From assembly GCF_022965805.1 (NCBI RefSeq), contig NC_133108.1:20923545-20987544 (forward strand): a stretch of 64,000 bases of DNA. The letters run 5' to 3'. Positions 6,084 through 56,201 of this stretch are shown here, piece after piece. A program made the translations under genes and the position numbers. This stretch comes from Primulina eburnea (lineage: Eukaryota > Streptophyta > Magnoliopsida > Lamiales > Gesneriaceae). The notes under the pieces are model-generated. The model had not been told where the DNA came from. It searched no databases and was given only the letters and a program-made list of their open reading frames with translations. Within the stretch, counting starts at the first letter, position 1. Each line of letters opens with the position of its first letter.

Positions 6084-7196
6084 ATGTGGTAATTACAGCT
6101 GAGTCAGACGAAGCATCCTGTAAGATCAGCTTACGAATTTGAGTTCTATCATTACGAGCGTATAAACTTGTGTAATGGTTTATCCCAACGAAGTCCAACG
6201 AACCCTTAAGTAGCGGGGACAAGTCCGGACCGATTTCAGGGAGTCTTTCACCCACCAGCTTCTGCATTGAAAGAGGGTAACTCCCAAGAAGAAGTGGATC
6301 TAGAAACCTTAAAATCAGATTCAAGGCTTGTAATCATTCTCTACAGACCATAATTTTCAAAATACCGAAATAGTAAATTTTATTCGTACGTCATTACCAT
6401 CCTATTCCAAAATCCAATGCTCTCCTTGCAGCGTCTACATTTTCATCAACATCAGATATTGGTTCATACCACTTGGCGTCTAATGCTATACCGACTATGC
6501 CTCGTTGGCTTTCCTGATAAAAATGGCGTCTATTATGATTCGTCCCAGAGATGTTTTTTGTCCCTAAAAAGAAGTTCTTAATAAACAGAAATACCTTGAA
6601 ATTTTGCTTGTAGTTTCTATAAGCAGCAGCATGAGACAAGAGTACGTTATGAGCTACAATGTAAGGCTCGACAGATGATTTTCCTGCTTTGCAAAACAAA
6701 TGTCCGAGGATAGAGCACCTCCCCGGAGCTTGAACCCCTAAATCATAACCTTGGATTGCAATACCGTGAGGCTCGTTGAAAGTTATCCAGTGTTTCACTC
6801 TAGTCCCAAAAGCTTTGAAACATGTAAACGCATATTCTTCGAAATCTTTTCTGTAACAAGTAAAAAATTTGACATATTAAACTTCATTCTCGAACCCAAG
6901 AAATTACACTGTAAGCAAAGTGAATTACACGAACAATGCACCTACACTGCTTGGTTGCTTAATAATCCTCCATACTTATCTTCAAGGATTTGGGGAAGAT
7001 CCCAGTGATATAAAGTTGCATAGGGCTGTATTCCTAACAAAACAATATTTTGAACAACTACTTAGAAATGAAGAACTTGCACGTATGATTTCTCACGAGT
7101 TTTCTTTCTCCTTACAAAACTAACCTTTTTCAAGTAAAGCGTCTATTAGATTGTTGTAGTATTCTATCCCTTCTTGGTTTGGTTTCCCAGTTCCAT
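6084..7196 (-). CDS. GH1 beta-glucosidase, exons 5-9
   Basis: This is the middle of a family 1 glycoside hydrolase, a retaining enzyme that removes beta-linked sugars from small glucosides. Exons on the minus strand are 7196-7125, 7033-6946, 6850-6595, 6513-6398 and 6307-6084 (72, 88, 256, 116 and 224 nt), sizes familiar from plant GH1 genes. All introns have GT/AG ends. Motifs in order are NGTGKPN (Asn codon split with exon 4), [16 protein letters not shown] with the acid/base Glu, [17 protein letters not shown] and FVGINHYTS. No stop or frameshift was found. The nucleophile motif (TENG) should lie in later exons beyond the COP-1 insertion, outside the window. Substrate cannot be told from sequence. 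Confidence 0.93.
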
Positions 7197-7567
7197 CTGT
7201 AAATTCCATAAACTAAAGACGTAAGAAATAGTGCTTAATGTTTTAAGCCACAAACTAATATTGAAAAATAGGGACCATTGGTGGCAAATGGCTGCATATT
7301 CAGTTATGTTTGCGATAAGTTCATCGTAGGGATTAGGGGTGGGCACAAGTCGTGTATTTCGGGTTTCAAATGCTTTGAATTGGATTTTCAGATAATAATT
7401 TATGCTACCAAAAAATAGTTGGTCACCCGAGGAGTCAAGTGCCGATGAGATTTGGTCAGCTTTCCCTAACAACCAATATCCATTATTTGAATTATATGCA
7501 TTTTGAAGTATGTTGTCCTTTTCAAACACCATTTAATAGATTTTGCAAATTCATAAAGTTTAATTAA
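7197..7567 (-). other. GH1 intron 4, downstream remnant
   Basis: This is the original intron sequence between the COP-2 insertion and the acceptor AG before exon 5. A short open frame here (7164-7532) is a chance frame that runs into exon 5. The matching upstream part is 54631-54899, so the intron was about 640 nt before the insertion. Confidence 0.85.
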
Positions 7568-54630: not shown

Positions 54631-54899
54631 TTTAATGCTCATAACATCAAACTTTGGATTCCATCCAATTGCTCTGATATCCGACGATAAATTTGTTATC
54701 CTAAATATTTATATTTTTTTAGATTGGATACATAAGCTGGTTTTTCGGAGACAATCTGACGAAATTTAGATATATTTGGTGTGATTTGACGAATCCCAAC
54801 TACTATTAATAAACCGAACGGAATTGAATCTAGAATGCCCTGTCTTTGGTGAATGTACAAAATCAAAGGGAGAGAGTAATTAATTGTGTAAAATCTTAC
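54631..54899 (-). other. GH1 intron 4, upstream remnant
   Basis: Original intron from the donor (A/GTAAGA at 54899) to the COP-2 insertion. An open frame here (54696-54941) is chance extension of exon 4. Confidence 0.85.
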
Positions 54900-56201
54900 T
54901 AGGAAATATTCTTGACCAAGATATGGAGAATCTGTACGCATCCATACCTAAGTCTTTCATCAACTCTATGTCACTCTGTCAAATGAAAGATAAAAAGTCC
55001 ACGTCAGTTAGGAAAATATAAGACCTCAATTTTATCGAAAAAAAGTCTTCATTGATTTACCCATATCACTAAACATATTATTATTCATATCACAGGTGTG
55101 CCACACATGCTTATTATTATACTAAGGATAATTATGATTGTACTACCAAACAATGTGGTTTTCTTATCCTCTTCCAATACCTTTTCTCTAAATTATGGCT
55201 TTTTATCAATATCTTTGGGCATTGAATTCAAACTTTTATGTTTGGAGTAGGTTTCTTGTGAGACGGTCTCACGAATTTTTATCTGTGAGACGGGTCAACC
55301 CTACCGATATTCACAATAAAAAGTAATATTTTTATCATAAAAAATAATACTTTTTCATGGATGACCAAAATAAGAGATCCGTCTCAAAAAATACGACCCG
55401 TGAAACCGTCTCATATACGTTTTTACCTTATGTTTGACTTCCGTGAGAAAATTCAAGATAAAAGAAAACAACAAGCTTGTAAAAAATCTATGGAACTTCT
55501 TCGTTGAATATGTTTGGAATTCCTTCTCATGGAAAATTACAACTATATTCAAGACCTATAAATCGATCCGATGTAAAATAACATAGATGCAAGACTAATT
55601 TTGTAAGATATAAGAGATTTTATGTGATGGGGTTCTTGTTTTCATTTAGTTTACGAGGTGTGTGCACTTGATAAAAACAGGGCATGGAGCTATTTATGTC
55701 TCGTTAAGACATTCACCTTGAAACGATGATATTGATCAACCGCTGTATCTGCATTGCTGAAGTCCAATATTCGTCCTGATCCCCAGAAGAAGATTGACAT
55801 AATCATTAAGCGGTGAAAAAGTTTTAATGACAGATTGATCATGTTTGCTACATTTTGGATCAAACCAAATTCTTGAAAAGAAACACCAACCTGGTTGCTT
55901 TGTGAAGGTATCCCATATGCTGTCTCCTTTATTTCCTTCATTTATTGCTCCTTCAAACTATAAATAACATATTATACACCGAATATACACACACAAAATT
56001 GTCATCATATTTCACTTCTTTATCTTAAAAATGTAATAAAAACCAGTGAACATGTATATATTTTATAGTAATTAATTTAACCTGGTAAGCAGAAGAAGCA
56101 GTTCCAAAAACGAAACCGTCTGGAAAATCGTCCCGGGAAATGGATTCGGAATTCGCCAAGAACAACAGCATCAACGGAAAAACCAGTAAAATGGTTGCCA
56201 T
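54900..56201 (-). CDS. GH1 beta-glucosidase, exons 1-4
   Basis: Exons on the minus strand are 56201-56082 (120 nt), 55957-55891 (67), 55775-55717 (59) and 54975-54900 (76). The ATG at 56201 opens a hydrophobic signal peptide ([18 protein letters not shown]), so the enzyme is probably secreted or vacuolar. Next come [17 protein letters not shown] (family signature), [25 protein letters not shown] and [15 protein letters not shown]. All introns have GT/AG ends and phases agree. Exon 4 ends with one base of an Asn codon that exon 5 (7196) completes, giving the canonical SRIFPNGTG join across 47.7 kb. Exons 1-9 encode 359 residues of the usual about 510. Exon sizes match the conserved plant GH1 pattern. 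I see no damage; promoter and expression are unknown. Confidence 0.93.
55255..55419. mobile_element. MITE-like inverted-repeat element in GH1 intron 3
   Basis: The left end CTTGTGAGACGGTCTCAC and the right end (complement of TGAAACCGTCTCATATACG) form imperfect terminal inverted repeats. A second inverted pair (GTGAGACGGGTCAACC and CGACCCGTG) lies inside. About 165 bp with no coding. I recognise this as a common dispersed small element of eudicot genomes, from memory only. The target duplication is not clear. Confidence 0.6.

Follow-up and report, generated by a model that had tools for sequence, protein, structure and literature searches.

Can a plant gene remain whole and usable when transposable elements have driven its exons tens of kilobases apart? 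The question is raised by a GH1 beta-glucosidase gene on contig C8 (45.3 Mb) of the 812-Mb genome of Primulina eburnea, of which a first-pass annotation had placed nine exons on either side of one giant intron. We analysed C8:20923545-20987544, a stretch of 64,000 bp that we call the window (positions given without prefix are counted within it), and also read 50 kb to its left and 10 kb to its right.

The gene lies on the minus strand and is whole. It has 13 exons that comprise 1,521 nt including the stop codon and encode 506 amino acids without an internal stop or frameshift, and it spans 60.9 kb, from an ATG starting at C8:20979745 to the last base of the stop codon at C8:20918884. Exons 1-4 (56082..56201, starting with the ATG and placed by translation and alignment with the Primulina huaijiensis protein described below; 55891..55957; 55717..55775; 54900..54975) and exons 5-9 (7125..7196; 6946..7033; 6595..6850; 6398..6513; 6084..6307) lie where the first-pass annotation had put them, and their 1,078 nt are open throughout. 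The two blocks are, as it had also proposed, parted by the element COP-2 and the elements nested in it, within an intron 4 of 47,703 bp (7197..54899, minus strand, GT..AG). Its claim of canonical splice sites is borne out at every internal boundary of exons 1-9, giant intron included; indeed, all 12 introns of the gene are GT/AG. Exon 4 ends in a split codon (A/gtaaga) that exon 5 completes (A/AT, joining 54900 to 7196), giving the expected Asn108 in SRIFPNGTG. Exon 9 ends in a split Ser codon, and the phases fit at both big introns. The missing exons 10-13, to be sought by extending the sequence leftward, were recognized by GH1 C-terminal motifs and sequence reading at C8:20919708-20918884 (minus strand), 3.8-4.7 kb left of the window and beyond an element in intron 9. 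They are intact, and the search for disabling changes in them revealed no stop and no frameshift. Introns 1 to 12 measure 124, 115, 741, 47,703, 91, 95, 81, 90, 9,919, 93, 72 and 217 bp; thus two introns, 4 and 9, are swollen, not one.

The product is predicted to be a GH1 beta-glucosidase of the BGLU41 type, and the gene is apparently single-copy. Pfam Glyco_hydro_1 (PF00232) matches residues 24-498 with an E value of 3.3e-155, and both catalytic motifs are present, TFNEP in exon 7 and ITENG in exon 11; we take the Glu of TFNEP (NEP) to be the catalytic acid/base and that of ITENG (ENG) to be the nucleophile. Several solved plant beta-glucosidases match the protein by sequence. The nearest protein, 'putative beta-glucosidase 41' of P. 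huaijiensis (P0001), has the same length of 506 aa and differs at 13 of 506 residues, with no gaps. That a reading across 13 exons should match a named plant protein over 506 residues with no gap is, by this comparison, far beyond chance. The 60.9-kb span is that of the P. eburnea gene, whereas its P. huaijiensis counterpart is known here from the protein alone. The name BGLU41 is carried by this best match and by many among the best 120 of 5,581 matches. A 17-sequence tree (495 columns) places the protein as sister to P. huaijiensis BGLU41; since the tree took in no other GH1 subfamily, the subfamily assignment rests on match names and identity. The N terminus encoded by exon 1, judged by eye, resembles a signal peptide.

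We compared the protein with its relatives, for which we took the best 120 of 5,581 matches (from 7,992 candidates scored) and kept the 105 of 485-545 aa, dropping 15. All 118 columns invariant in the 105 relatives are kept. Of 204 near-invariant columns the protein breaks three; the leave-one-out median is 2 (quartiles 1-2), the P. huaijiensis protein breaks five, and 87% of the 105 relatives have three or fewer broken. Breakage is therefore slightly above that of a typical relative and below that of the P. huaijiensis protein. In the 17-sequence tree the terminal branch is 0.008, versus 0.021 for the P. huaijiensis protein. Codon 108, the one split by the giant intron (54900/7196), encodes Asn here and Tyr in the P. 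huaijiensis protein; as 96 of the 104 other full-length relatives have Asn and two have Tyr, the P. huaijiensis residue is the unusual one.

What fills intron 4 is a nest of LTR retrotransposons, which we resolved by finding LTR pairs through self-comparison and expressing their divergence as K2P. The outermost element is a Copia, as stated by the first-pass annotation: COP-2 (7568-54630, minus strand, that is, gene-sense) is flanked by ATTAA/TTTAA, matching at 4/5 positions, and its body contains a Pol_BBD match together with gag_pre-integrs and rve fragments that fall below curated cut-offs. Subtracting COP-2 and one target-site copy leaves an intron 4 of 635 bp. An insert of 2,604 bp in the left LTR of COP-2 (7795..10398, strand not assigned; TG..CA, flanks TAAGC/TAAGC) is interpreted as a solo LTR. 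The right LTR of COP-2 is interrupted by TAT-1, a Gypsy element (25956-54602, plus strand; flanks TCTTC/TCTGC, 4/5) with an RVT_1 match at 28673-29434 and presumably Tat-like, as judged from its primer-binding-like site. Before TAT-1, the sequence from 25780 onwards corresponds to one part of the left LTR; beyond TAT-1, the left-LTR tail at 10500-10530 matches 54603-54633 at 28 of 31 bases (E = 3.7e-06). The joined COP-2 LTR alignment scores 130-134 versus a maximum of 72 in 200 shuffles, and the bases between its two parts align poorly. Within TAT-1 in turn are nested two further plus-strand Gypsy elements, a middle one (32952..41417, flanks CCACT/CCACT) and the youngest (42890..53339, flanks AGAGC/AGAGC). 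The intron sequence flanking the nest, 54607-54899 (of which the first 24 bases are COP-2) and 7197-7570, gave self-matches only in a genome search that skipped very common words. We also observed a nest of repeats inside COP-2 at 14067-22930 (pairs 14978-15556/19537-20103, 15973-17292/20113-21426 and 14207-14642/22496-22930, K2P about 0.10), and a short direct-repeat array at 31414-32083 within TAT-1, with copies about 100-200 bp apart.

LTR divergence grows outward through the nest: K2P is 0.012 for the youngest Gypsy and 0.066 for the middle one, both within TAT-1 at 0.099, itself within COP-2 at 0.18 (35 differences at 221 sites; 95% interval of the raw distance 0.11-0.21). Each dated element is thus younger than its host, and the LTRs of TAT-1 are as clearly diverged as had been noted from the first reading. 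LTR clocks run at 1.3e-8 or 7e-9 substitutions per site per year; at these rates the ages come to 7-13 My for COP-2, 4-7 My for TAT-1, 2.5-4.7 My for the middle Gypsy and 0.5-0.9 My for the youngest.

The second swollen intron has a far shorter history. Intron 9 runs for 9,919 bp, from the end of exon 9 at C8:20929628 to exon 10 at C8:20919708, and would measure 92 bp without its insert. The insert is a minus-strand LTR element of 9,822 bp, flanked by TTTAT/TTTAT, that occupies positions 1..6068 of the window and continues to L002:6247. On the donor side 15 bp of intron precede it, and on the acceptor side 82 bp remain. Its LTRs, of 2,256 bp, differ at three positions (K2P 0.0013), which gives an age of about 0.05-0.10 My at the two rates. 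From a primer-binding-like site motif we take it to be Copia-like and gene-sense. Its two overlapping frames, of 158 and 181 codons, gave no Pfam match, and the element may therefore be non-autonomous. Partial copies of its LTR lie upstream of the gene at 57939-59267 and 63230-63969, with 94% and 92% identity. Also upstream, about 0.5 kb from the start codon, is a remnant of a hAT transposase C-terminal dimerisation domain (PF05699, E = 2.2e-06; 56686-56901, minus strand), so that the promoter region is confined by sequence of transposon origin.

Is such swelling usual for genes of this kind in P. eburnea? Matches outside the gene numbered 74 and fell into 22 loci. Fifteen of these have matches extending from residue 170 or before up to residue 495 or beyond, and they span 1.8-4.8 kb; the remaining seven are uninformative on intron size because they have one or two matches each. 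Six loci have matches flanking intron 4, and the stretch between these, adjoining introns included, is 425, 567, 781, 883, 957 and 3,166 bp. The swelling is, as judged from these matches, peculiar to the studied gene among the readable GH1 loci. Among the 85 of 132 candidates in the genome that were scored, none was another close copy of the gene: the next GH1 loci, taken at their best exon, share 67% and 64% identity with it. Nor did this search yield a recent paralogue for a dN/dS comparison.

To ask what intact exons imply, we simulated neutral evolution of the reading frame over the time given by each element's K2P. Over the COP-2 time (3,000 runs) the frame acquired 5.2 stops on average and escaped any stop in 0.5% of runs; this chance is 2.5% at the lower K of 0.12, 5.2% for TAT-1 alone, 12% for the middle Gypsy and 69% for the youngest. 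The argument for selection therefore leans on COP-2, whose K comes from 221 aligned bases, because the no-stop chance is 0.05 for TAT-1 and 0.12 for the middle element. Mutation tends to be faster in methylated elements than in exons, which makes the simulation figures too favourable to selection. The first-pass annotation had suggested that the gene stayed under selection. This stands for the time since the old outer insertions, in view of 506 open codons, 118 of 118 invariant columns and a terminal branch shorter than that of the P. huaijiensis protein, and falls short of the last ~0.1 My, which these data leave uncovered. Selection over most of the time since the arrival of COP-2 appears well supported. 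A recent loss of expression would be compatible with intact exons, because the intron 9 insertion, at ~0.1 My, is too young.

Taken together, the structure of the locus makes it probable that this is a complete single-copy BGLU41-type gene whose introns were inflated by LTR insertions, which is transcribed and spliced through them, and whose exons were kept by selection. An intron 4 of 635 bp received a Copia element, within which later LTR elements inserted until it reached 47.7 kb, and an intron 9 of 92 bp very recently received one Copia-like element and grew to 9.9 kb. Each insert is still bordered on either side by remnants of the original intron, and the donor and acceptor sites survive. 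RNA polymerase II would transcribe through the elements, the spliceosome would remove them along with the introns, and selection on the enzyme would have kept the exons open. By analogy with Arabidopsis, poly(A) sites in the sense-oriented LTRs would be masked by H3K9me2 together with the IBM2/ASI1-EDM2-AIPP1 proteins. Splicing through both introns is the likeliest reading of the intact sites, flanks and frame. A single protein-fragment search (residues 61-182) for a transcript over the junction of exons 4 and 5 returned no near-identical match among the best 120 of 304, which showed 51-92% identity; the 92% match covers 59% of the query.

That search result would also suit a gene that has recently fallen silent: one that worked until the last ~0.1 My, when the intron 9 insertion, or heterochromatin at the locus, cut it off too recently for its exons to have decayed. 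In favour of this, the element in intron 9 has three differences in 2,256 LTR bases and begins 15 bp from the donor end of what would otherwise be an intron of 92 bp; if it is gene-sense, as its primer-binding-like site indicates, a functional poly(A) site may lie in its LTR. However, introns of such size have EST support in grapevine, according to PMC3058033. In addition, the donor, the 82 bp on the acceptor side and the frame are intact, and exons 10-13 have no stop or frameshift. We therefore give recent silencing a small chance of being correct.

It is also possible, if improbable, that partial transcripts dominate. The 5' LTR of either COP-2 or the element in intron 9 would then supply the poly(A) sites at which most RNA ends, leaving the full-length form a minority, and the truncated products would lack the nucleophile of exon 11. 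Both elements that struck the introns directly are in gene-sense orientation. Transcripts of Arabidopsis RPP7, with its COPIA-R7 element, end in this way upon loss of EDM2 (PMC7529245), and grapevine genes with large introns are reported to be more often represented by a single EST (46.0% vs 32.8%; PMC3058033). The strong conservation of the protein, however, implies that the full-length product mattered.

A related proposal is that the sense-oriented LTRs of both swollen introns form a regulated switch, yielding full enzyme while heterochromatin masks them and halting transcripts in intron 4 or intron 9 once unmasked. We regard such a switch as very doubtful; if it were real, the gene would have gained transposon-based control with its protein unchanged. 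Finally, that assembly misjoined two exon blocks through repeats is hardly credible even in so repeat-rich a region, given that all six insertions with placed ends have matching flanks (four perfect, two 4/5), the COP-2 right LTR tail resumes beyond TAT-1, exon phases fit at both big introns, the contig reaches 45 Mb and no second close exon copy was found (85 of 132 candidates scored).

Transcription and splicing through transposon-filled introns, the reading we prefer, is in keeping with what is described in other plants. In grapevine, EST-cluster mapping identified 2,697 introns of 3-100 kb, about 80% repetitive, in which about 30% of LTR pairs exceed 99% identity (PMC3058033). As described there, these expanded introns are like those of the P. 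eburnea gene in being filled with LTR elements, young insertions among them, and the grapevine genes are still expressed; 47.7 kb is within the grapevine range of 3-100 kb. Splicing in grapevine is backed by spliced ESTs (PMC3058033), whereas for the P. eburnea gene we infer it. Introns longer than 10 kb are mentioned for spruce (PMC4108047), and the longest reported for Siberian larch, 10,153 bp, comes from a fragmented assembly and is of little use as a ceiling (PMC9370799). In Arabidopsis, transcription is reported to proceed through intragenic heterochromatic elements (PMC10241880), and EDM2 and IBM2, in complex with AIPP1, are described as suppressing poly(A) sites of intragenic elements so that full-length transcripts form (PMC10241880, PMC7529245, PMC4417168). 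RPP7/COPIA-R7 and IBM1 likewise have a Copia element within an intron of a coding gene (PMC7529245, PMC10241880, PMC4417168). For these Arabidopsis genes H3K9me2 and poly(A) choice were measured, whereas the P. eburnea insert is a 47-kb nest read from its sequence alone. Our literature search found nothing joining Gesneriaceae, long introns and transposable elements.

Large transposon-filled introns are, thus, already known in plants, and this gene is a new, well-dated example that brings no new mechanism and leaves the current picture of plant introns as it is. It also cautions that such genes can be split by automatic annotation, as is reported to have happened in grapevine (PMC3058033). Its value lies in a clean and datable record of stepwise intron inflation, in which the ages of the nested insertions run in the right order and another intron was hit very recently. 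It also offers a natural test of the limits within which long introns full of transposons can still be transcribed and spliced.
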